A stretch of DNA of 15,978 nucleotides, from positions 1-15,978 of the forward strand of contig CAMCQX010000004.1 of assembly GCA_945876985.1 (NCBI GenBank), in the 5' to 3' direction. Shown here piece after piece: positions 4,000 to 15,827 of this stretch; positions within the stretch are counted from its first letter, which is position 1; every line of letters starts with the position of its first letter. The notes beneath the pieces are model-generated. The model was not told the origin of the DNA. It saw nothing but the letters and a program-made list of their open reading frames with translations, and ran no database searches. Made by a program: the position numbers and the translations under genes. Source of the DNA: Chitinophaga pinensis. GTDB taxonomy: Bacteria; Bacteroidota; Bacteroidia; UKL13-3.

Positions 4000-4530
4000 A
4001 TGTTGGATAAAGAAAAAATGAAACAAACTTTAACCAAAACCAATGTTAAAGGCAAAGATGTTTTTATAGCAAACAACGCAACTGTTTTTGGAAATATAAA
4101 TCTAGGAAATGAAGTTTCTATTTGGTTTGGTGCAGTTCTCCGTGGTGATAATGATGACATTATTATTGGCGACAGAAGTAATGTTCAAGACAACGCTGTT
4201 ATTCATGTAGACCCTAATTGTCCGGTGCATATTGGCCATGATTGTATCATTGGTCATTCGGCCATTGTACATGGAGCAAAAATTGGAAACCATGTGTTAA
4301 TTGGCATGCATTCTACCATTTTAAACAATGCGGTTATTGGCGATTTTAGCATCGTAGGTGCTAATGCATTAGTGACAGAAGGCATGCAAATTCCACCATA
4401 TTCTTTGGTGCTTGGTTCTCCAGCAAAAGTGGTGAAGCAAATTACTCCCGAGCAGGTTGAAAAAATTAAATTAAACGCCCAAAGTTATGTTGACTTAAGT
4501 AAGGTTTATTTGGATGTTTTTGGGGAATAA
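4000..4530 (+). CDS. Gamma-carbonic-anhydrase-like hexapeptide (left-handed beta-helix) protein
   Basis: A 176-aa left-handed beta-helix protein of the gamma-class carbonic anhydrase/YrdA/PaaY family, probably a cytoplasmic trimer. Hexapeptide repeats run over about residues 20-140 (for example IGDRSN, IGHDCI, IGNHVL, IGDFSI). The three metal-ligand histidines are in place: H69 (AVIHV), H86 (IIGHS) and H91 (VHGAK), with the 5-residue spacing between the last two seen in the family. FGAVLRGD (43-50) is the usual family signature, with R48 and D50, and Q63 is in the expected NVQD context. Many family members bind metal but have weak or no carbonic anhydrase activity, so the function stays open. 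It follows the serine hydrolase gene by 3 bases. Met7 (4018) is an alternative start that keeps the whole domain. Confidence 0.9.
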   Translation: MLDKEKMKQTLTKTNVKGKDVFIANNATVFGNINLGNEVSIWFGAVLRGDNDDIIIGDRSNVQDNAVIHVDPNCPVHIGHDCIIGHSAIVHGAKIGNHVLIGMHSTILNNAVIGDFSIVGANALVTEGMQIPPYSLVLGSPAKVVKQITPEQVEKIKLNAQSYVDLSKVYLDVFGE

Positions 4531-4539
4531 TTGTAACCT

Positions 4540-4584
4540 CTGTCAGACGCTTAATTAGCCATAACTAGGCCAAGCGTCAGACGG
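4540..4584. repeat. Imperfect inverted repeat between convergent genes; possible terminator or small repeat element
   Basis: Arms 4540-4552 (CTGTCAGACGCTT) and 4572-4584 (AAGCGTCAGACGG) pair over 13 positions with one A-A mismatch and one T-G wobble, around a 19-base loop. It is the most GC-rich spot in an otherwise AT-rich gap and lies between genes that converge, so a two-way terminator is likely. Neither side has a U-tract, so it is not a textbook intrinsic terminator. The word GTCAGACG occurs in both arms in direct orientation because the core is itself nearly palindromic. This makes a dispersed intergenic repeat an alternative. I did not see another copy in the window. Confidence 0.6.
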
Positions 4585-4617
4585 ATAAAAGCAAGTTCCG
4601 AAATCAAAAACACTTAC

Positions 4618-5886
4618 CTATTTCACCCAAAATGGAAAGTTAGCACAAGCTACTTGGTCGTGGGTATCGTAAATATAAACAAATATGCGGTATGCTCCTT
4701 TTTGAAATGGTGCTTTAAAATTATAACCATTTACTCCATTTCCTTTTACGTTAATGGGCATAGCATCGGGCCTTTTTTCAGCATCTCCACCGGTTCCAGT
4801 AAATTCACTTTCGGGTAAAAGTTCCCATTTATAAGTTAAGCTTGCCAAATCAGAATGAGTTATTTTTAGTTTCAAATTCACATTTACACCTTTTTTAAAT
4901 TCTAAACTTTTTGTTGGCAATTCATTATTGAGTAAAAAAGAATCAATTTGTGGCGCCCAAAACTGAGGTGCTTTTCCGCTCCAAACTTCTTGCAATACAT
5001 TTACCGCTTCCGTTTGTTTTTTATCTACAAAAACTCCATACCAAGTAGGTGTAGTTTCTTGTTTTTGTCCCCATAAAAATGCGTAAGAACCTACACATTG
5101 ATTACTATCACTGATAATATTTTCATTATATCTTTTTCGATAGGTAATGGCTTTTTCAGTAGAAGTTTGTTCAATGGCAGCGCCCCATTTTACTTTGGCT
5201 ACTTCCCAATGACCGTTTGGACCCCATTCAGTAACCAAGTATGGTTTTTTCCAACCAAAAAGTTTTATTTTCTCTGCCAATGCTGGCAAATCGCCATAAG
5301 TATTCACACCTAAAATATCAATGTCGGGACAAATTTCATTGATTAAATGAACTTCGGGTGCATCTATTCCCGCGGTAACAGTAGAAGTAGGGTGATTCTT
5401 ATCTTCTTCATGAATCATTGCGGCAATGGCTTGTACATTTTTCCAAACCGAAAAATCGGTATAGTCCAAATCTACTTCATTTCCAATTCCCCAAAGCAAT
5501 AAAGCAGGATGGTTTTTAAACCGATTTACAACCGATTTAAATTGCTCCACTTGATCCTGGCAAGCCCATTTATCACTGTAATCAAAACCTGTTCTTTCTG
5601 GCGGCATCCAAAGGCCAAGCATTACTGTTAATCCATGTTTTTGAGCTTCGTCTAAAACTTCTTGCGCATTTTCTGCACCCCAAATTCTCACTGAATTTCC
5701 TCCAGCAGCTTCGGTTTTATCCATAAACACATCGCCACCCGCACCTTTTACATAATAAGGTAAATTGTTGCGTAGCAATTGGAAATTCCCATTTGAATTT
5801 TGAGAGATTTCAACTTTGATTACTTGCGAAAAAATGGGTTGAAAACCAAAACAAAAAAGCAGTAAACCAAGAATTTTATTTTTCAT
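4618..5886 (-). CDS. Glycoside hydrolase, TIM barrel plus Ig-like domain; probable GH158-type endo-beta-1,3-glucanase
   Basis: A 422-aa secreted clan-A-type retaining glycosidase. Residues 1-21 are a signal peptide ending IFSQ. The TIM barrel covers about 25-305, with NSVRIWG (64-70), the acid/base motif WGIGNEVD with E137, and the nucleophile motif VTEWGPNG with E220. A beta-rich Ig-like C-terminal domain (about 310-422) ends in CANFPFWVK. It also resembles the TIM barrel of GH2, but the GH2 sugar-binding and sandwich domains are missing. The short barrel-plus-Ig layout and the GH16/GH3 neighbours fit GH158, a family described in the beta-1,3-glucan locus of Bacteroides uniformis; this assignment is from recall. 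There is no T9SS sorting domain or lipobox, so it is probably periplasmic. It is the last gene of the operon, 3 bases after GH16. Confidence 0.8.
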   Translation of the reverse strand: MKNKILGLLLFCFGFQPIFSQVIKVEISQNSNGNFQLLRNNLPYYVKGAGGDVFMDKTEAAGGNSVRIWGAENAQEVLDEAQKHGLTVMLGLWMPPERTGFDYSDKWACQDQVEQFKSVVNRFKNHPALLLWGIGNEVDLDYTDFSVWKNVQAIAAMIHEEDKNHPTSTVTAGIDAPEVHLINEICPDIDILGVNTYGDLPALAEKIKLFGWKKPYLVTEWGPNGHWEVAKVKWGAAIEQTSTEKAITYRKRYNENIISDSNQCVGSYAFLWGQKQETTPTWYGVFVDKKQTEAVNVLQEVWSGKAPQFWAPQIDSFLLNNELPTKSLEFKKGVNVNLKLKITHSDLASLTYKWELLPESEFTGTGGDAEKRPDAMPINVKGNGVNGYNFKAPFQKGAYRIFVYIYDTHDQVACANFPFWVK

Positions 5887-5889
5887 AAA

Positions 5890-7707
5890 TTATGGATTGG
5901 TTTTTACAATTTTAAAATAATAATGACGCTCATTATTTGTAATCCTAACAATATAACTTCCTGTATTTAACGAAGGGATTTGCTTGTTAACTTCGTCAAT
6001 ATTTTTAGCAGCAATCAATTCTTTTCCTGTTAAATCAAACAAAGTAATTTGAGAAGGAACAAAAGCTGCATCTATACTTATTTGATTGGTAAATGGATTT
6101 GGATAAATATTAATTTTATTATTTAAAATCTCACTTTCATTGATGCTACTGGTAGCAGTTTTACAAGGTGTTTCCACTAAACTAAATTCATCAAAATAAA
6201 ACACGTCAGAGTTATTAGAATTAGGAGCAAATAAAATCACCAATTGATTAATGCTTCCTTCAGGCGTATTGCCGTCAGGCTTCAAAATCAATTTGAAAGT
6301 TAACTCTTCCCAAGCTCTTGTTTTAGAAGTTTTACCTTGCAAAACACAACGTCTTCCTGAAGGATAATTTAATCCAGATAAAGCCCTATTTTCAAAATTT
6401 ATATTTACATCAGTTCCAATAGGAGCTGTGGTATAAAGTTTCATTTTCATTAAAAGCGTACCATCCTCAAATGCTTTTGCATTGCGAATTACATCAGAAA
6501 AAACCACCAATGCATCGTAAGTGGTAGAACCGCTTCTGTAATACCTATTACAAATTAAAGTACTGTTCACACTGTCTTTTGAAGGATTATTAACTGCAGC
6601 TTTATAAGTTCCATTTCCACCTACCCAAAATACATTTCTGAGCGATTCAACATTATCAAAAACACCTTCACAAGTATCGGGTAAGGTCCTAATAAATTTG
6701 CTAATAGTTTTTGTGTTTGACAGATAAGTAATAGTCACTTTTATGCTATCACTTTTTAAACCCCAATTTGCTTTAATGGCTGCAGTTCCTTGTCCTTGCG
6801 TAATTTTACAATTTGCCGGAACTTGCCACAAATAAGTGGCTCCAGCAATTTTTTGAGTATAAAAATCTTTTTGTTGATCAGCTCTTAAAATAGCATCAGG
6901 ACTGGTAATATATACATCGTTTAAATTCTGATAAACACGAATATAATCAACTTGTAAAGAAGCAGTATCTGGAGTTGTTCCATTTGGATAACCAAGAAAA
7001 TATCCACCAACGGCTATGTTAATAATGCAATGAAAATTTCGGTTATATGGCCACCAAAAATCAGGTAAATCTTTTTTTGTTTTAGTGCTAAAAACTACAT
7101 TGTCAACCAACCATTGAATGGTATCTTTTTTCCAATTTAACGAGAAAACATGAAAATCAGAGGTAAACGAACCCGTTGGCAAAGTGTAATTAGATCCTGT
7201 ATATTTATTATTTGGTGAATGCGCGCCATAATGTATGGTTCCATAAGTATTTTTAGGTTCTTGTCCTTTGCCTTCCATCAGGTCTATTTCGCCACTTAAT
7301 GGCCAAGTTCCATAATAATTTTCAGTAGGTAAAAACCATATTGCGGGCCAATATGCTTGCCCAATGGGTAATCGTGCTCTTACGTCAATTCTACCCGAAG
7401 AAAAATCAAATTTATTCATGGTTCTAATTCTTCCAGAACTGTAAGAACTATTGCCAATTGTTTCTTTTTTAGCATTGATATTTAGCATACCATTTATTAC
7501 TGAAATGTTACCTTTTTGATACGACTGACGTTCATCATTTCCCCATCCACAAAGGTTTGGGCAGCCATCACCAATTTGATATTCCCAATAATTAGTGTCT
7601 AAATTACTTCCATTAAATTCATCGGACCAACGCAAAAAATCTTGCGAAAAAACTGGAGTGGAAATGGAGAGTATTAATATTAAAAAGATGGTTTTATAAT
7701 TTTGCAT
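5890..7707 (-). CDS. T9SS-secreted GH16 beta-glucanase (laminarinase type) with accessory domains
   Basis: A 605-aa multidomain enzyme that should hydrolyse internal beta-1,3 (or mixed 1,3/1,4) glucan bonds outside the cell. Residues 1-21 are a signal peptide. The GH16 domain spans about 24-260; catalytic residues are E140, D142 and E145 in GEIDLME. The ExDxxE spacing is that of laminarinases rather than lichenases, and WPAIWFLP (119-126) precedes it. About 265-345 is a PKD-like/Ig-like domain (TYLWQVPANC). About 346-515 is a jelly-roll, carbohydrate-binding-like domain ending VFYFDEFSL. About 532-605 is a type A T9SS sorting domain: IYPNPF, then LFDLTGKEL, then LNTGSYIVRI and a lysine-containing end. 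It would be carried across the outer membrane by the T9SS and attached to the surface or released. It starts 7 bases after the GH3 gene. Confidence 0.94.
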   Translation of the reverse strand: MQNYKTIFLILILSISTPVFSQDFLRWSDEFNGSNLDTNYWEYQIGDGCPNLCGWGNDERQSYQKGNISVINGMLNINAKKETIGNSSYSSGRIRTMNKFDFSSGRIDVRARLPIGQAYWPAIWFLPTENYYGTWPLSGEIDLMEGKGQEPKNTYGTIHYGAHSPNNKYTGSNYTLPTGSFTSDFHVFSLNWKKDTIQWLVDNVVFSTKTKKDLPDFWWPYNRNFHCIINIAVGGYFLGYPNGTTPDTASLQVDYIRVYQNLNDVYITSPDAILRADQQKDFYTQKIAGATYLWQVPANCKITQGQGTAAIKANWGLKSDSIKVTITYLSNTKTISKFIRTLPDTCEGVFDNVESLRNVFWVGGNGTYKAAVNNPSKDSVNSTLICNRYYRSGSTTYDALVVFSDVIRNAKAFEDGTLLMKMKLYTTAPIGTDVNINFENRALSGLNYPSGRRCVLQGKTSKTRAWEELTFKLILKPDGNTPEGSINQLVILFAPNSNNSDVFYFDEFSLVETPCKTATSSINESEILNNKINIYPNPFTNQISIDAAFVPSQITLFDLTGKELIAAKNIDEVNKQIPSLNTGSYIVRITNNERHYYFKIVKTNP

Positions 7708-7714
7708 ACATGGT

Positions 7715-9955
7715 TTATTTAACGGTAATAGAATCTTTTAAATTAGCAATACTAAAATAAAACTTACCCGGCTCTACTATAAATTTATTATCTAATCCCA
7801 CAAAAGCTAAATCAGTAACAGCTATTTTAAATTGCACTTCTTTGCCTTCATATTTATCCAAAGGTACACGTTTAAATGCGCGTAATCTTTTTACTGATGG
7901 AGTAATGCTGGCATAAACATCGGAGGCAAATACCAACACTGTTTCTGAACCAGCAATTGCACTAGTATTATTCAATTGAACAGTAATAGAAACTGTATCT
8001 TTTACAGTAACATCTCTGTTCTCAATTTTCATATTAGCATAATTAAAATTTGAATAACTTAAACCCTGTCCAAAATGGAATAATGGATCAAAACCAATAG
8101 GTTTAAAATCGTTGTTTAAAGTTTCAGTATATTTACAATCGTAAGTGGTGTGAACACCAGCAAAACGAGGAAAAGTAAATGGCAATTTGCCACTAGGATT
8201 TACTTTACCAACCATGATATCTGCTATGGCTAATGCACCTTCATTTCCGGGTAAGTAAGCATCTAAAATTGCATCGCAAAGCGATTCAGTTTTAGCAAAA
8301 GTTCTAGGTCTTCCTTCTAATAAAATTACTACTACTTTTTTACCCGCTTTTTTATACATTTTTATCAAATTTTGTTGTGATTCATCTAACTCTAAATCGT
8401 TGATGTCACCAGGTTTTTCAGTATAAGTATCTTCACCCAAACAAAGCACCACAGTATTTACATTTTGCGCAGCATTTAACAACACATTTTCAGGTAAATT
8501 TTGTGTGTAAGTATTCCCTTTTAAATAACTCACATTTCCATTCGCAAAAACATTTTTCAACGCATTTACAACTGTTAAAACTTTAGGATTGTAACTAGTA
8601 TCTCTTCCTTGCCAAGTATGACTCCAACCACCATTCAAGGCATTGATATAATCAGCATTAGGACCGGTTACTAATATTTTTTCATTCATTGAAAATGGCA
8701 AAATATTACCTTCATTTTTTAATAAAGTAATGCTTTGGCATGCCAATTCATAACTCAGTTTTTTGCTTTCAATTTGTTCTGGTTCTTTAAAATTTTCAGG
8801 TTTGGCATTAGGTTCGTCAAACAATCCCAACTCGTATTTTAAAGTTAAAATTCTAAGCACCGCTTCATCTATTCTTTCCTTTTTTATTTTACCTTCATTT
8901 ACATTTTCAATCAAGTATTTTGTAAAGTCTAAATCAAGCGGAACCATTGCTAAATCAATACCTGCGTTAATAGCAAGTGCAACTGCTTCCTTATATGTTT
9001 CAGCAACTTTATGGCGTTCCGTTAGGTTTTTTATATCCTCCCAATCAGTAACTGTTATTCCCTCAAATTTCAATTCATTGCGAAGCACCGTTTGCAATAA
9101 AAATTTACTGGCATGAACAGGTTCTCCGTTCCATTCACCTGAATTTATCATTATGGTTTTTGCGCCTGCGGCAATTGCCTTAGCAAAAGGTAACAAATAA
9201 ATTTCACGTAATTGGCGCTCTGGAATATAAGCAGGAGTTCTATCATGTCCACTTTGCGGATTACTATAAGCCACATAATGTTTTAAGCAAGCTGCAAATG
9301 GTTTTACAGTTCCATTATTGGTGTTTTGATAACCGTTAACAATGGCTACTCCCATTTGCGAAACTAAAAAAGGATCTTCACCAAATGTTTCCCAAAACCT
9401 TGGCCACATGGGATTTCTTCCCACATCTAACACAGGAGAAAAGTTCCATGGAATGCCACTTCCTCTTACATCGTTGGCCACAAATTGTGCCATTTTATAA
9501 GCCATTTCAGGATTAAAAGTTGCCGCTAATCCAATTTGTTGTGGATATAAAGTAGCTCCCACCGTATAATTTGCACCATGAATGGCATCAATTCCATACA
9601 ATACGGGAATTTTTAAACGTGATTGTTGACTGTATTTTTCTATGCTGGTTATAATTTCTTTCCAATGATTCACATCGTAAGTATGTCCGCCAACATTTAA
9701 AATTGAACCAATTCCCAAATTCACAATTACATTTTGCAATTTAGTGGTATCTAAAGCATGTGGTTTTTCCAAATTAAAACCTTCCCCTTTTGAAATCATT
9801 TCAATGGTTAATTGTGTCATTTGCCCAGCTTTTTCTTCTAAAGTCATTTGGCTTAATAATGCTTGTGCTTTCGATTTTGCCGAGTCGTTGGTTTTAGTCC
9901 CACATTGCCAAAGCAAGAAAGAAAAAGGTATAAAAAGTAAAATTGTTTTATTCAT
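7715..9955 (-). CDS. GH3 beta-glucosidase (BglX type)
   Basis: A 746-aa exo-acting glycosidase that should remove terminal glucose from beta-gluco-oligosaccharides. The layout is a TIM barrel (about 25-385), an alpha/beta sandwich (about 400-615) and a fibronectin-III-like end (about 650-746). GH3 landmarks are FSPVLDVGRNPMWPRFWETF (172-191), the KH motif at 225-226, and nucleophile D304 in GITVTDWED. The GEDTYTE segment (507-513) lies where the GH3 acid/base glutamate is expected. The N-terminus is a short hydrophobic stretch with Cys18 in LLWQCG. This looks like a lipoprotein signal, though Gln before the Cys is unusual. With no acidic run after Cys18, a periplasmic-facing lipoprotein is more likely than a surface one. 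The start overlaps the upstream gene by 8 bases. Exact linkage preference (1,3 versus 1,4 or 1,6) cannot be read; the neighbours suggest 1,3. Confidence 0.94.
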   Translation of the reverse strand: MNKTILLFIPFSFLLWQCGTKTNDSAKSKAQALLSQMTLEEKAGQMTQLTIEMISKGEGFNLEKPHALDTTKLQNVIVNLGIGSILNVGGHTYDVNHWKEIITSIEKYSQQSRLKIPVLYGIDAIHGANYTVGATLYPQQIGLAATFNPEMAYKMAQFVANDVRGSGIPWNFSPVLDVGRNPMWPRFWETFGEDPFLVSQMGVAIVNGYQNTNNGTVKPFAACLKHYVAYSNPQSGHDRTPAYIPERQLREIYLLPFAKAIAAGAKTIMINSGEWNGEPVHASKFLLQTVLRNELKFEGITVTDWEDIKNLTERHKVAETYKEAVALAINAGIDLAMVPLDLDFTKYLIENVNEGKIKKERIDEAVLRILTLKYELGLFDEPNAKPENFKEPEQIESKKLSYELACQSITLLKNEGNILPFSMNEKILVTGPNADYINALNGGWSHTWQGRDTSYNPKVLTVVNALKNVFANGNVSYLKGNTYTQNLPENVLLNAAQNVNTVVLCLGEDTYTEKPGDINDLELDESQQNLIKMYKKAGKKVVVILLEGRPRTFAKTESLCDAILDAYLPGNEGALAIADIMVGKVNPSGKLPFTFPRFAGVHTTYDCKYTETLNNDFKPIGFDPLFHFGQGLSYSNFNYANMKIENRDVTVKDTVSITVQLNNTSAIAGSETVLVFASDVYASITPSVKRLRAFKRVPLDKYEGKEVQFKIAVTDLAFVGLDNKFIVEPGKFYFSIANLKDSITVK

Positions 9956-11135
9956 AATTTATGTTTTGTTCTATTGTAATTTCATCCAACCAAAGCTCTC
10001 CTGAATTGTTAAATTCTATGATTAATTGTTTGAATCTTGTTATATCAAATCCATCTTTTGTAAAGTCAAATTCTTTGAACGGAATTGTTATCATTTGCCA
10101 ATTATTATTAGTTGGTAAACTGGCTAAATATTCTTTTTTTATTGGAATCATCACTGTTTTGCCATTATAACTTTCAAAGCCTATACTTAAATTTTTATTG
10201 GCATTTATATCAACATAATTAATATAAAATTTTAGCGCATAATTTTTCAAAGAGTCAGGAAATGAAATGGCTTGCCAATGTTCCCAATTCATTCCAATTT
10301 TTCGAGTTTGTTTTCCACTTTCTTGTTCATTCCATTTTAGGTAAATAGATTTACTTCCAGCATAATTTTTAGTACTATCTAATAATATATTTTTACCAGT
10401 ATAATTACCCAATCCCCAAGCAAAAGGAAGTTCATCATGAAATATTGTTGCAGGGAAATTTTGCGTAATTGCTACACCAAATTTTTTAGAATTTATGTTT
10501 TTGGAATTAGCTCCTCCAATTTCAATTTTATCAATTAAAAAAGCACCTGAACCCTGACATTCTATATTCAAACTTTTAATATTACTAAAATCGCATAATG
10601 GCTTGGCTGATTTCAAAAATGTATTTAAGGGAATACTTACTTTTTGCCATTCTTCATCTATTGGATAATTTGATAACTGACTTGCTTTAAGCACGGTTGC
10701 ACTTTGAACTCCTGAATAATCTTCTAATAAAAAAATTAAGGTTGGAATATATTGTTTACCTTTTAAAGCTCTCATGTAAAATTCAATACTTCCGCTTTCC
10801 ATTACATCGGTTAAATCTTTTGAAGCATAGCCGTTCCAACCAATTCCAAAGCCTATCCACGGGCAATTACCTGTTCTATTCCAACTAACACTTAAACACG
10901 ATTTACCACTGTATGAAAGGGAATCAAGTCGAGTAAAATTCTTACAATCTGTTTTTTCCATTCCCCAAACATCCACCGTTAAATCCTTATAAATTTCTCT
11001 GTCTTGAAATTCCTTAACGGCAGTATTTGCATAAGTTCCTCCCCATTCATCTGTTAATTGTGTTTTTTGCATGCGAATGCCACAATTACTCAAAGTAAAA
11101 ATTAATAAAAAAAGGTATATGGTAAACTTTCTCAT
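9948..11135 (-). CDS. Probable lipoprotein with two tandem jelly-roll (carbohydrate-binding-like) repeats
   Basis: I do not recognise a named family. This 395-aa protein has a lipoprotein-type N-terminus (hydrophobic 5-15, then LSNCG with Cys18). The rest is an internal duplication of about 185 residues. YSGKSCLSVSWN (75-86) matches YAGSKSIYLKWN (258-269), EEWQKVSIPLNTF (161-173) matches NNWQMITIPFKEF (344-356), and the segment ending FLIDKIEI (199-206) matches LWLDEITI (381-388). The closing pattern, a W-rich strand, a D-I/F turn and a final LDxIxI strand, is typical of CBM11/CIA30-like jelly rolls, so I infer glucan binding. No catalytic motif is seen. Its start shares one base with the upstream stop (TAATG), and its end overlaps the GH3 start by 8 bases. 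It could be a glycan-binding protein or a periplasmic partner of GH3. Confidence 0.75.
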   Translation of the reverse strand: MRKFTIYLFLLIFTLSNCGIRMQKTQLTDEWGGTYANTAVKEFQDREIYKDLTVDVWGMEKTDCKNFTRLDSLSYSGKSCLSVSWNRTGNCPWIGFGIGWNGYASKDLTDVMESGSIEFYMRALKGKQYIPTLIFLLEDYSGVQSATVLKASQLSNYPIDEEWQKVSIPLNTFLKSAKPLCDFSNIKSLNIECQGSGAFLIDKIEIGGANSKNINSKKFGVAITQNFPATIFHDELPFAWGLGNYTGKNILLDSTKNYAGSKSIYLKWNEQESGKQTRKIGMNWEHWQAISFPDSLKNYALKFYINYVDINANKNLSIGFESYNGKTVMIPIKKEYLASLPTNNNWQMITIPFKEFDFTKDGFDITRFKQLIIEFNNSGELWLDEITIEQNINYE

Positions 11136-12169
11136 TATGGTTGAAATGGCGCTGAATAAGTGAATGAAGCGAAGTCAAGTCCAACACGAGTAGCACCTGA
11201 AGTTCCAGGTTGAGCCAATAATAAAAACTGCGCATTTATTATTCTGTCTAATTCTTTTTTTCCATTTCTATCGGTATTTCCAAATCCACCAGAAGTAGAA
11301 ATACTTGTTTCATCGTATGAAAAACTAACCAATTTCCAACCTTTCCAATTCACGTTCATTCTATAGTTATAAGTTCCTTCTTCAGCTGGTTGATAAACTC
11401 CATCTAAATTATCATCTTCCTGAAATTCTACATTTAATTGTGCATTTTTATCACCCCAACCGTATACATAAGCGTTAAAGAAAACTTTCTTCGGATTATC
11501 GGTACTAAAAACAAAATAATTGTTAGCAGTACCTTGACTAATTTTGGCACTTAATGCCATTCCGCAAATAAATAAACTAGCTGTTGGACCATGGTTACCG
11601 GCCATTACAAAGAACCTTGTTTTTTCTGCTGAGGATATTCCAGAATAATTTACTGAAGTAGAATTGTATGATTGTTGACCTTCGGTAAATGTATTATAAG
11701 CACGTTGTGGACTTTCAAAATCATCAATTAAAATATCAACTGAAGGAGTTGGTCTTGCAGCTGCAATTATAATAGTATCGGAGTATAAAGTATCAGGGTA
11801 ATTTTCAAAACTCATGCGTGCAACTACAGGTTCGTTTTTTCTAAAAAATGGTGCAAAAGAAATACTTCCATTCCATGCTAATTGATTCAATGAAAAATCT
11901 TTATCGTTTCCGGTAAATATTTTCAATGCGCCACTATTTAACCCAATTATTTCAACAGTCCAATTGGTTCTTATTGAAAGTTTGGTATTGTAAATTACAA
12001 TGTCGCCAGTAGCAAAATTTGGTGATTTTATGGATGCTTTTAATGGCGCTAAAATTTTAAAATCACCAAATATATCTACCAATTCTGGACCTTCAATTTT
12101 TGTTTCTTTTTTACACGATGAAATAATTGCAATGGCAATAATTCCTATATATAGCAATGTTTTTTTCAT
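11135..12169 (-). CDS. Lipoprotein with Ig-like and jelly-roll domains; candidate surface glycan-binding protein
   Basis: A 344-aa protein with a clear lipoprotein signal: MKKTLLYIGIIAIAIISSC, Cys19, followed by KKETK. A charged, partly acidic stretch right after Cys is the kind of signal that sends Bacteroidota lipoproteins to the cell surface. About residues 30-138 look like an Ig-like/beta-sandwich domain (LSIRTNWTVEI, ARMSFENYPD). About 145-344 look like a jelly-roll starting VDILIDDFES and ending VGLDFASFTY. It has aromatic residues suited to sugar stacking (VNWKGWKL, 273-280) and a possible calcium loop EDDNLDG (251-257). SusE/SusF-like surface binding proteins have comparable roles but I see no specific homology. 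It sits in the operon place where surface glycan-binding proteins usually sit, 9 bases after the barrel gene. Binding of beta-glucan is inference. Confidence 0.75.
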   Translation of the reverse strand: MKKTLLYIGIIAIAIISSCKKETKIEGPELVDIFGDFKILAPLKASIKSPNFATGDIVIYNTKLSIRTNWTVEIIGLNSGALKIFTGNDKDFSLNQLAWNGSISFAPFFRKNEPVVARMSFENYPDTLYSDTIIIAAARPTPSVDILIDDFESPQRAYNTFTEGQQSYNSTSVNYSGISSAEKTRFFVMAGNHGPTASLFICGMALSAKISQGTANNYFVFSTDNPKKVFFNAYVYGWGDKNAQLNVEFQEDDNLDGVYQPAEEGTYNYRMNVNWKGWKLVSFSYDETSISTSGGFGNTDRNGKKELDRIINAQFLLLAQPGTSGATRVGLDFASFTYSAPFQP

Positions 12170-12178
12170 GTTAGTTTT

Positions 12179-13900
12179 TTAAAAAAATAAGTTATAAATA
12201 ATAGCTAATCTGTTTATAGCATATTGGTTTTCTGCTAATAATTTATTGTTCCAATCAGCTTGTTGATACTGAATTTTTAAGCAATTATATTTGCTGAATT
12301 GATAGTTAATTCCTCCCAATAAAATGGTTTCTTGTAAATCTGCGTTATACGATTTATAAAAAATAATTTCATTGAATGAATTGCGTTGCGCTAAAAACTC
12401 ATTTCCCTTGGCATTTAGTATAATTCCTGCTAATTGAATTTCTAAATTTGGAATAATTTCATACTCCACTCCTAATTTTATTTGCGTACTTATAAAATCA
12501 ATTTTGTCAATTCCTTCAGTTCCATTTCTTGAAGTATTTTGTTGTTTTACAAACAAGTCAACATGCACTTTCTTTTTTCCTTTATATAATTCATTTATGC
12601 CTAAATCGGCCAGTATTTCAAAATTTGTAAAGTCTCTAATTTCAGTAGTTCCTTGCCCTGTAATTTCATTGTACATAGATGCATTTCCGCTTATTTTCAA
12701 AAGATTTTTATTGCTATGATTCCATGTCAATTTTACATCAGCACCTTGGCGATTTGGAGTTGCTTTTCCGTATGGTAACATGTTTTCATAAGCAGGGTTG
12801 TAATCTTTTAAAGTTGGACTTAAAAACATGTTGTAATAATTTCCATCTGTTAATACAGAAAGCATATTTGCTGGTCTTGCCGATTCTCGATTGGTATAAT
12901 AGGGATATTCGCTAGCCACAGCATTAAAATCTACTCTTCTACTTTGAGCACCAACACTTCTAAAATTAGTTTCTACACTACGTAAATCAATACCAAAATT
13001 CCAGTTTTTCTTTCTGTTATCAATGGTAATTCCTCCATCTATAAACATACCATCGTTTATTGAAGGTGCGTTTGCAGTGTTTTCATATGTCACATTCGAT
13101 TTACCAAATTCTCCACCCAATACTACTTTTAAATCTTTTACTTTTAAATCTTCTTTTACTTCAAAACTGTTAACAGTATTGTTGAATAAAGCATTAGAAA
13201 ACATAGCAGTTTTTTGCACGTCAAAAGCATTGGTATAATTATAAGCTATGCTTAATTGGTTAAACATTTTTGCCTGAATGGTGCTTCCAGCAAAAAGTCT
13301 GTCGGGAGAACTGAAATAGTCGGTTTGTTTATTTTTAGTAATTAATCCTGTTACATGAATATGGTTCACATATTTATTAAAATCAAAACCAATATCTGCA
13401 GTTGCTCCTTGTTGACGCCAAGAATTTTGACCATAAAATTTATCGTATGCAATTACTTCTGTGAATGTATTAAAAGCAGCAGGATTATTTTGACTTAGTT
13501 CACCTTGATTATTAAATAAAGTAAAAGCCGTCATTCGAGTATTTAAGTCGCCAACTTGGTATTTTATTCTGTTAAACATTAAGCCTCGTAAGTATAATTC
13601 ACGTAAATTGAAAATGATTCCACCACCCCAAAATCCTGTCATTTCATTTTGCACACGTGTGGTAACTTTTATTTCAGTATTTTCTGAAGGACGAATATGT
13701 AATCCAAAATCAAATAAAGTAGCACCAGTCATTTGTTTTCTCGCGGTGGTGGTGTCTTTATTGATAAGGTTTCCACTCAAACTACTGTTGTTAAAAGTAA
13801 ATCGTCCAGAACCAAAAAAATCAATCTTTTTTTCCTGCGCTTGTATTGCCAAAGGCAACAAACCAAGACATAATAATAAGTATGTGTATATATGCTTCAT
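12179..13900 (-). CDS. Outer-membrane beta-barrel protein, porin-like
   Basis: A 573-aa protein with a signal peptide (1-22, ending IQAQ) and, after it, strand-sized alternating segments joined by polar turns, ending in RLAIIYNLFF. A terminal Phe is typical of barrels inserted by BamA. The stretch LRELYLRGLMFNRIKYQVGD (99-118) resembles the LREAYxxL..xxGxx strand pair of carbohydrate-type and DcaP-type porins. There is no plug domain, TonB box or carboxypeptidase-like N-terminal domain, so it is not SusC or another TonB-dependent receptor. It could be a passive oligosaccharide porin, or an anchor for the lipoproteins or enzymes. A segment MFLSPTLKDYN (358-368) faintly recalls FYMSPQFVNYY in the upstream barrel. 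The gene begins one base after the 641-aa barrel gene ends. The outer-membrane call is secure; the function is inferred from context. Confidence 0.78.
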   Translation of the reverse strand: MKHIYTYLLLCLGLLPLAIQAQEKKIDFFGSGRFTFNNSSLSGNLINKDTTTARKQMTGATLFDFGLHIRPSENTEIKVTTRVQNEMTGFWGGGIIFNLRELYLRGLMFNRIKYQVGDLNTRMTAFTLFNNQGELSQNNPAAFNTFTEVIAYDKFYGQNSWRQQGATADIGFDFNKYVNHIHVTGLITKNKQTDYFSSPDRLFAGSTIQAKMFNQLSIAYNYTNAFDVQKTAMFSNALFNNTVNSFEVKEDLKVKDLKVVLGGEFGKSNVTYENTANAPSINDGMFIDGGITIDNRKKNWNFGIDLRSVETNFRSVGAQSRRVDFNAVASEYPYYTNRESARPANMLSVLTDGNYYNMFLSPTLKDYNPAYENMLPYGKATPNRQGADVKLTWNHSNKNLLKISGNASMYNEITGQGTTEIRDFTNFEILADLGINELYKGKKKVHVDLFVKQQNTSRNGTEGIDKIDFISTQIKLGVEYEIIPNLEIQLAGIILNAKGNEFLAQRNSFNEIIFYKSYNADLQETILLGGINYQFSKYNCLKIQYQQADWNNKLLAENQYAINRLAIIYNLFF

Positions 13901-13901
13901 G

Positions 13902-15827
13902 TTAAAAATATAGTTTAAGTTCTATGGTTGTTTCTGTTCCTTTAATATTGTCTTTTACAAAACTTTTGTCTTCTTGGCTAAACCATCGTCTTCTAAAATA
14001 TAAATTTGTGTTTTTAGCAATGGCTAAATCTAAACCCAATCCAAACAAATTAGATTCTTGGTTAATGGCATTATTTAAAGTACTTCCAAGTTTGCCATCT
14101 ACATTATCACCTTTGTTTAATTGGCTATTACCTGTAATGTATTCTTTACCAAACGATGTAATTAAACTCACTTCTTTATTGATCATAAAAACAGCATCAA
14201 ATTCATGGTAAAAAGTTCGTAAATAAGCATTACTGCTAAAGGTTGGAATGATGTTAAAATCGCTTTGCGCTGAACCAAATGAACCAACATAAAGTAAGTA
14301 AAAAGGAATATAACTAAAATTTACTTTTTGTTTTAATTGCACTTGTAGCATGTTAAAATTGGTCAATGTTTTGGGCATTCCTAAAGAATTTGTATCTGTA
14401 ATTTCAATCGATTGAGAAAAGCCACGGAAGTATGATGTCCAATTGCTGTAAGCTCCCACATTATTTACAAAAGGAACAAAACGAGAAAAAGGCAAAGCAT
14501 TTATTTTATGGCCAAAAGCCAAAGTACGTCCCATTGATTTAATTTCACTAGAAACCATATTTCCAATGTTTAATTTGGTAGATTTTGTAATATCTAACCA
14601 AAAATTAAAACTAAAACCCTTACGGTTATTACTAATTTGACCAACGTCTGTTATTGATCCAGCAAAATTACTAATGCCTCCACTTCCTCCTGCCGAATTA
14701 CCAGTTTGATTAACAGATGACGTACTTAAAAAAGCTGTATTTGAACTTAAAAAATTTCCGTAATAATTTACGAATTGCGGACTCATATAAAATCCTTCAA
14801 CATCAAAAGGAATTTTTGTAATTTTAGCAGGTGTTTTTATTTTTACTCTTATTGCTTCGCCCCAACCTTCTTTTTGAGTATTTGAATAAAGTTGGCCTCT
14901 TCCCATTTCCGCTGATAAATCAAATCCATTCCAAACCAAGTCGTATGAAAAAGTTTGTAATTGAATTCCAGCTTCTTCAGTTGCTAATGAATCTAAGAAT
15001 GAAGTATAATTCATCATATTAAATCCAATGGTTTGATTGTTTATTTTTTTTCTAACTCTTAGTCCAAAAGTATAAGATGGAATTTTACTGCCAATAATTG
15101 ATTGAACGGGTGTAACGCCATATAATAATCGGAACGACATGTTACCCGGAAGTTCATTTCCATCAATCATCATTCCTTTAAAAGCTTGCATTCCAAAGCG
15201 CATGTCTCTGCTAATATTTCCATATTCAAAATAGTTAGAAGCCCTATCGTATGACACAGAATTATTTTCCCAAGGATAACGTTCAAAAATACTATAACGT
15301 TGGTAACCAATAAAACTACTAAAAAGCATTCCGCTCATGTCAGTCCAATTAATACCACCCATATGTGCTGTAAATTTTCCAACATCTGTTTGAATACTTC
15401 CAGTTAAGTTAATACCTAAATTTAAATTGATAGGACTATTGCCAATATTTCCAGTAAAATTATGGTATAAGGCATAATCCATTCCTATATAAGTTTTAGA
15501 AGTTGGCTGAGCGGAAATATTAATCAACATCAAAGGTGGATCTCGATATACATCGCCAGCACCAAGCACAAAATTTGGTGCATTTGCAAATTGATTCCCT
15601 GGAATTACTACAAAAGAGTTTTCTAAGTCACGGTTAATTCCAAAAAAACGATAATATCCATTAACACTAATTTTTTTTAGTGGAATTAATCCCAAAGGAC
15701 CAGTATAAATTGGTCTTATAACAAAGCCTGAATCAACATCTTGAGCATTTATTTTGGAAATATTAAATCCAAAAAACGTAAGTATTAACAAGCAAAAAAA
15801 TCGGTTGAATAGGTAATATTTTTTCAA
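13902..15827 (-). CDS. Large outer-membrane beta-barrel protein, first gene of the glucan operon, TTG start
   Basis: A 641-aa protein I cannot assign to a named family. Residues 1-29 form a signal peptide ending KINAQ. The mature part shows many amphipathic strands separated by Asn/Gly/Ser-rich turns and ends TTIELKLYF with a terminal Phe, as in outer-membrane barrels. Residues 361-400 are a Ser/Thr/Asn/Gly-rich low-complexity stretch (including GNSAGGSGG), probably a long outer loop. There is no plug domain or TonB box. The start codon is TTG at 15827-15825. Reading upstream in frame, a stop (TAG at 15860-15858) is reached with no ATG or GTG between, and TTG gives an intact signal peptide. 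It leads the operon, where SusC would be expected, so a role in glycan uptake or surface display is inferred from context only. Confidence 0.75.
   Translation of the reverse strand: MKKYYLFNRFFCLLILTFFGFNISKINAQDVDSGFVIRPIYTGPLGLIPLKKISVNGYYRFFGINRDLENSFVVIPGNQFANAPNFVLGAGDVYRDPPLMLINISAQPTSKTYIGMDYALYHNFTGNIGNSPINLNLGINLTGSIQTDVGKFTAHMGGINWTDMSGMLFSSFIGYQRYSIFERYPWENNSVSYDRASNYFEYGNISRDMRFGMQAFKGMMIDGNELPGNMSFRLLYGVTPVQSIIGSKIPSYTFGLRVRKKINNQTIGFNMMNYTSFLDSLATEEAGIQLQTFSYDLVWNGFDLSAEMGRGQLYSNTQKEGWGEAIRVKIKTPAKITKIPFDVEGFYMSPQFVNYYGNFLSSNTAFLSTSSVNQTGNSAGGSGGISNFAGSITDVGQISNNRKGFSFNFWLDITKSTKLNIGNMVSSEIKSMGRTLAFGHKINALPFSRFVPFVNNVGAYSNWTSYFRGFSQSIEITDTNSLGMPKTLTNFNMLQVQLKQKVNFSYIPFYLLYVGSFGSAQSDFNIIPTFSSNAYLRTFYHEFDAVFMINKEVSLITSFGKEYITGNSQLNKGDNVDGKLGSTLNNAINQESNLFGLGLDLAIAKNTNLYFRRRWFSQEDKSFVKDNIKGTETTIELKLYF

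Follow-up and report, generated by a model that had tools for sequence, protein, structure and literature searches.

Laminarin is one of the main storage glycans of algae, and Bacteroidota are taken to import it through SusC/SusD pairs. Here we describe an operon of seven genes on a 15,978-base contig assigned to Chitinophaga pinensis (CAMCQX010000004.1 of GCA_945876985.1; the window hereafter is this entire contig), in which enzymes of glycoside hydrolase (GH) families GH16, GH3 and GH158 are encoded beside two predicted outer-membrane barrels (B1 and B2) and two putative lipoproteins (LP1 and LP2). Among described systems, the Bacteroides uniformis 1,3GUL has an enzyme set of GH16, GH158 and GH3, accompanied by a SusC-like TonB-dependent transporter, a SusD-like surface glycan-binding protein (SGBP-A), an SGBP-B-type protein and an adjoining hybrid two-component system (accessible part of PMC7157763). 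Laminarin polysaccharide utilization locus (PUL) variants of marine Flavobacteriia likewise hold beta-glucan enzymes including GH16, GH158 and GH3, and candidate PULs there are defined by susCD gene tandems (accessible part of PMC10877868). The chu_1276-chu_1280 cluster of Cytophaga hutchinsonii is described as an "atypical PUL" for cellulose, where growth on cellulose requires CHU_1279, with chu_1276, chu_1277 and chu_1280 also important and the SusC/D pair uninvolved; similar clusters are named in Cytophaga aurantiaca and Sporocytophaga myxococcoides (PMC12016534).

The window operon carries the full GH16, GH158 and GH3 set of 1,3GUL and an SGBP-B-type protein, and a sensor-regulator adjoins it in its relatives as in 1,3GUL. 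In contrast to that locus, two barrels without a plug and LP1 take the place of the SusC-like and SusD-like proteins, the regulator seen in relatives is of a propeller plus LuxR type, and the GH16 bears a type IX secretion system (T9SS) tail. A sequence-only reading of the window had recognized an enzyme trio known from Bacteroidota laminarin loci, in agreement with 1,3GUL, but had missed that the outer-membrane part is, by sequence comparison, homologous to the published chu_1276-chu_1280 cluster. Judged on the same basis, the architecture is not unprecedented: in the window operon the SusCD-less PUL known from C. hutchinsonii takes a beta-1,3-glucan form. We put the probability at roughly 70% that the operon, with the mechanism proposed below, is a beta-1,3-glucan (laminarin-type) locus of this SusC/SusD-less, "atypical PUL" kind.

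Homology of the outer-membrane part to the chu_1276-chu_1280 cluster

A search that started from the B2 of L143, a relative with GH9, retrieved CHU_1277 of C. hutchinsonii (P0275). Window B2 aligned with CHU_1277 at 28% identity over 587 columns (E 7e-65) and B1 with CHU_1276 at 27% over 632 columns, covering window residues 97-640 (E 6e-49), and LP1 matched CHU_1278 by hhalign (E 3.5e-39). These alignments show B1, B2 and LP1 to be homologous, gene for gene and in unchanged order, to CHU_1276, CHU_1277 and CHU_1278; LP2 and the enzymes differ. P0275 is encoded at 100% identity in genome G843, and in locus L229 the second gene downstream of B2 encodes a protein of 375 amino acids (aa) with Y253, F256 and F343, the residues carried by CHU_1279 (PMC12016534). 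Because of the P0275 match and these residues, L229 was taken as the chu_1276-chu_1280 locus; its order is B1 (747 aa), B2, LP1, the 375-aa SGBP and GH9. In both clusters a protein with tandem carbohydrate-binding modules (CBMs) stands fourth and a glucanase next, and the C. hutchinsonii cluster also has no SusD homologue and no plug in CHU_1276 or CHU_1277. The clusters differ in that the one aimed at cellulose has GH9 and the window has GH16/GH158/GH3; they belong to different taxa, and barrel identity is just 27-28%. Although LP2 occupies the same place as CHU_1279, no sequence match between them was found (E 0.99), and a profile comparison with GH9-type relatives was negative too.

B1, B2 and LP1 gave no Pfam, NCBIfam or PHROGs family above cut-off, and their profiles found no match in a PDB sequence search. 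AlphaFold models of the barrels, built from 35-sequence alignments, had per-residue confidence scores (pLDDTs) of 89.4 for B2, with 22 strands, and 77.9 for B1, with about two dozen strands and certain stretches below 50. The first strand begins at residue 26 in B2 and at residue 52 in B1, too early for a plug to precede it. In fold comparisons, porins, ushers and the barrel parts of TonB receptors were near-ties, a family not listed being not thereby excluded; the TonB receptors among these matches align from after their plug, and porins and ushers match likewise. Known porin families (OprD/Occ, MOMP, AlgE, ushers) showed no sequence match to either barrel, and many unrelated barrels tie by fold. 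Neither Plug nor SusD was matched by Pfam in any of the seven operon proteins, using a library that did recognise a control SusC by Plug and a control SusD by SusD_RagB. An identity of the barrels as TonB receptors was rejected on the missing Plug and on strands that start soon after the signal peptide. Two plug-less barrels and no SusD-like protein, as the sequence-only reading had it, is what Pfam finds, and the models agree on the plug. TonB independence would have the missing plug as its only basis.

For LP1, the lipobox Cys19 was invariant in 12 diverse sequences. A lipobox pattern was found in LP1 (21/22 and 64/65 sequences in two sets), LP2 (21/21 and 42/61) and GH3 (11/16 and 26/38), the two sets overlapping in genomes and the pattern being loose enough to match 10/25 B1 and 7/25 B2 of the family set as well. 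Pfam matches of LP2 were CBM30 and SGBP_B_XBD, with two CBM30/SGBP-B-like stretches.

The GH16 protein comprises GH16, PKD_6 and Por_Secre_tail in Pfam and, among proteins of known structure, aligned best with laminarinases (3azx, E 4e-55). The GH3 protein consists of the N and C domains of its family plus an Fn3-like domain, and its closest structure is BoGH3B (5jp0, E 4e-174). The last gene had a weak Pfam match to GH2_C alone; in the PDB it matched 9oro, "GH158(Pro)" (E 4e-95), and 6pal (E 1e-68), and its predicted catalytic stretches N-E and T-E-W-G-P align with family 158 structures. Judged by these alignments, it is a member of glycoside hydrolase family 158; in BuGH158, N136, E137 and E220 are essential, and GH158 of known activity is endo-beta-1,3-glucanase (PMC7157763). 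Matches and models thus bear out the GH16, GH3, GH158-like, two-lipoprotein and two-barrel content originally proposed from the sequence. SprA was detected above cut-off in the source genome, as two pieces, which makes a T9SS plausible there.

All seven open reading frames lie co-directionally on the minus strand in the order B1, B2, LP1, LP2, GH3, GH16, GH158, with gaps at four junctions (1, 9, 7 and 3 bases) and overlaps at two (1 and 8 bases), confirming the tight spacing first noted. The source metagenome-assembled genome (MAG) comprises 1.86 Mb in 309 contigs and is 66% complete. Genes for a hexapeptide-repeat protein, a beta-lactamase-family hydrolase and an ABC exporter converge on the operon, and beyond the exporter lies a truncated gene which we take to be gpsA. 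A promoter and terminator scan of positions 4400-4700 found nothing.

Table 1. Operon features and their positions in the window.
Feature	Positions	Strand	Size and basis
B1, first barrel, CHU_1276 homologue	13902..15827	-	641 aa, TTG start; barrel model, no Plug
B2, second barrel, CHU_1277 homologue	12179..13900	-	573 aa; 22-strand barrel model
LP1, lipoprotein, CHU_1278 homologue	11135..12169	-	344 aa; invariant Cys19, hhalign match
LP2, lipoprotein with two CBM30/SGBP-B-like stretches, presumed glucan-binding	9948..11135	-	395 aa
GH3 exo-beta-glucosidase (predicted), possible lipoprotein	7715..9955	-	746 aa
GH16 laminarinase-type endo-glucanase (predicted), PKD-like domain, T9SS sorting tail	5890..7707	-	605 aa
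GH158 endo-beta-1,3-glucanase (predicted)	4618..5886	-	422 aa; structure-database matches, catalytic stretches aligned
Presumed promoter region, 151 bases from B1 to contig end	15828..15978	-	position upstream of B1

Conservation of the operon and reuse of its core

In the taxonomic order of the window (64 genomes), B1 was present in 27 genomes and B2 in the same 27. GH158 (E < 1e-100) accompanied them in 26 of the 27 and occurred in 0 of the remaining 37; the 27th genome, G017, has a completeness of 68% and a B2 split over two contigs. The close clade has the order B1-B2-LP1-LP2-(GH3)-GH16-GH158 and a more distant clade GH158-B1-B2-LP1-LP2-GH3. Recurrence of gene order in relatives indicates that the operon order is not chance, and to that extent the sequence-only reading, which hinged on a conserved order, has held. 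In one same-genus genome without B1 and B2, a fragment of 33 residues (G036:C45:166358-166456) shares 85% identity with the window GH158 at its end and resembles the remnant of an operon since lost.

When GTDB genome contigs were scanned, 168 stretches were confirmed and 78 distinct loci retained from them; by record titles these are mainly MAGs of Flavobacteriales, Crocinitomicaceae, Cryomorphaceae, Chitinophagaceae and similar groups. A record titled as a Euryarchaeota archaeon (L127) also carries the operon, the title being most likely a binning or naming error. In a class-wide sample of 395 genomes, GH158 (E <= 1e-60) was found in 62, B2 (E <= 1e-20) in 49 and both in 42; a Fisher test on this co-occurrence treats related genomes as independent. 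GH158 loci in the sample numbered 71, with 37 within 15 kb of B2 and 8 elsewhere in B2-bearing genomes. Outside the class, the barrel pair was seen in L222 and L224, B1 with LP1 in L223 and B2 with LP1 in L221.

The pairing of the barrels was near-constant across 125 distinct B2 loci (a set that excludes the window, L033-L059, which come from the same genomes as part of L060-L137, and L156 and L157; fetched loci span at most about 20-22 kb and many are shorter). B1 lay directly upstream of B2 in 124, at a median gap of 1 base; as B1 had served as bait for 71 of the 125, the independent figure is 53 of the 54 loci fetched without it. LP1 lay directly downstream in 106, with 9 loci at a contig end and 10 in which LP1 was not seen.

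The B1-B2-LP1 core also stands beside other enzymes, as determined by a Pfam run on ten neighbour proteins of reused cores, others being named by similarity to those ten. Neighbours were GH9 (L138, L143, L146), GH18 with NagB-like genes (L139, L144, L153, L154), a small GH16 with GH3 (L141, L142, L145, L148, L149) and GH97 with GH13 (L147). Twenty loci fetched with CHU_1277, from an order taken to be Cytophagales, had GH9, GH18, GH16, GH13 and GH158 as neighbours. A tree of B2 comprised 105 rows, of which 77 have GH158, 14 lack any recognised enzyme, 5 are of chitin type, 5 of small-GH16 type, 3 of GH9 type and 1 of alpha-glucan type, the substrate names being inferred from enzyme families. 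On this tree the enzyme labels require 17 changes against a shuffled mean of 27.0, and 0 of 200 shuffles were as low; near-copies add to this clustering. Paralogous cassettes (L138-L150, L153-L155) were seen in G073, G153, G185, G215, G244, G270, G296 and G342, up to three per genome, and G215 holds three cassette versions.

Where contigs of the close clade reach far enough, a divergent gene of about 960 aa lies upstream of B1. In L034, the one representative examined, it encodes a propeller repeat (Reg_prop) with a LuxR-type helix-turn-helix domain; in the relatives L072, L073 and L068 a divergent regulator gene starts about 150-190 bases upstream of B1. Farther out in the close clade, a long T9SS protein whose modules resemble CBM48 usually follows; the 978-aa example at L034:16193-19129, present in most close relatives, has repeated modules and a CBM48/AMPK1-like stretch near its end. 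In several loci, a membrane protein of 545-590 aa sits immediately ahead of B1, between it and GH158 or GH16 (L178:739-2511, L180:16321-18012, L183:5228-6871, L193:6337-7974). By eye it looks like a sodium-solute symporter, which would suit import of glucose across the inner membrane. In the distant clade, LP2 or GH3 is repeatedly followed by a lipoprotein-like gene of about 270-295 aa (L095:15192-16031 and similar).

SusC, SusD and TonB receptors, and rival explanations

Neither SusC nor SusD was found on the contig. Within its own MAG, at 66% completeness, SusD_RagB had 0 matches and Plug 15, all on other contigs. SusD_RagB was detected in 47 of the 64 genomes of the order, in no case inside the operons, the nearest being about 10.7 kb upstream of B1 (G001). 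Of the 125 B2 loci, 6 had a SusC, SusD or plug receptor at any point of the fetched stretch, and never between operon genes; the models used for these scans (for SusC, SusD, plug, enzymes and lipoproteins) were built from few sequences (SusC from 4). Applied to 20 control GH158 loci, 19 of them from genomes without B2, the same models found SusC or SusD in 4, so canonical loci are visible to them; for the 16 with neither, the models may miss canonical loci or GH158 may stand alone.

Several observations weigh against the proposed reading. No fewer than 26 of the 71 class-sample GH158 loci are in genomes without B2, and GH158 thus does not need the barrel pair. The presence of SusD elsewhere in 47 of 64 genomes means that help in trans is possible. 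In two near relatives without GH3, GH158 is followed on the same strand by a 187-aa gene and a TonB receptor (L072:17102-19967, L073:19037-21902), apparently near enough to share the operon transcript, and in L095 a SusD is the first gene of a same-strand series that leads into GH158-B1-B2; in L068, L093 and L244 the receptor is farther off or on the opposite strand. The cases in L072, L073 and L095 argue against strict TonB independence: of the alternative, TonB-independent glucan system proposed by the sequence-only reading, the beta-1,3-glucan locus without SusC/SusD is supported, and glucan capture by the barrels and independence from TonB are conjectural. Transport and glucan binding by the members of this version are predicted functions, as is induction.

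That the window is an ordinary SusC/SusD PUL with susC and susD just past the contig end is very improbable. The contig does stop 151 bases upstream of B1 in an incomplete MAG, and L095 has its upstream SusD in a co-directional run. However, longer contigs of close relatives (L034-L036, B1 92-97% identical) have, at that position by the operon start, the divergent regulator and CBM-rich T9SS protein and no susC/susD, and the low count in the 125-locus survey, set beside the 4 of 20 controls found with the same models, points the same way. Genes for SusC/SusD just outside the window were rejected on the upstream DNA of relatives and on that survey.

Rather unlikely is a role of the barrels as an outer-membrane platform that displays or anchors lipoproteins and glucanases, with import left to general porins or to a SusC/TonB receptor elsewhere. 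Loss of CHU_1276 or CHU_1277 lowers cell-associated beta-glucosidase activity (accessible part of PMC5553014), a drop that fits a surface-organising role equally and so also counts against the transport reading, and CHU_1279 is needed even with its cellulose binding damaged (PMC12016534). The SusD genes elsewhere in the order, the 15 Plug matches in the window's own genome and the TonB receptor soon after the operon in L072/L073 would supply the other importers. Against a platform, two wide plug-less barrels, adjacent in nearly all independently fetched loci, seem more than an anchor needs; the pair adjoins enzymes for different glycans; and CHU_1277 has been termed a porin and tied to cello-oligosaccharide assimilation (PMC5553014). 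Another beta-glucan as target, such as mixed-linkage or fungal/oomycete wall glucan, is unlikely in place of laminarin. Families GH16 and GH3 are broad, and LP2 resembles CBM30, known for cellulose and mixed-linkage glucans; yet laminarinases are nearest to the GH16, and characterised GH158 is endo-beta-1,3-glucanase (PMC7157763).

Proposed mechanism and significance

As a SusC/SusD-less beta-1,3-glucan locus, the operon would work as follows. Glucan would be captured at the surface by LP2 and LP1 and cut by the T9SS-exported GH16, and the resulting oligosaccharides would enter through the plug-less B1 and B2, in complex with LP1. Periplasmic GH158 and GH3 may then finish them to glucose. Expression would be turned on by the sensor-regulator that lies divergently upstream in relatives.

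No description of the beta-1,3-glucan version or of its spread was found among the open-access papers searched, most subscription papers being outside that search. What is new here is this version, its wide spread and the occurrence of the core beside GH9, GH18, GH16 or GH13/GH97, and the architecture extends far beyond the three cellulolytic species named in the accessible part of PMC12016534. By record titles, its carriers are many mostly uncultured, largely aquatic Bacteroidota. We propose, tentatively and at somewhat below even odds, that B1-B2-LP1 may be a second general outer-membrane machine for glycan import in Bacteroidota, working without SusC/SusD and TonB as an exchangeable cassette (for beta-1,3-glucan, cellulose, chitin or alpha-glucan) and overlooked by susC/susD-based PUL finders. 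If the barrel pair imports oligosaccharides, it would be a parallel to SusCD, and barrel-pair operons would escape any PUL count for which susCD tandems are a requirement. The window operon would then represent a soluble-glycan version of the machine behind SusCD-independent cellulose use in C. hutchinsonii, and so bears on how cellulose products may be taken up there.

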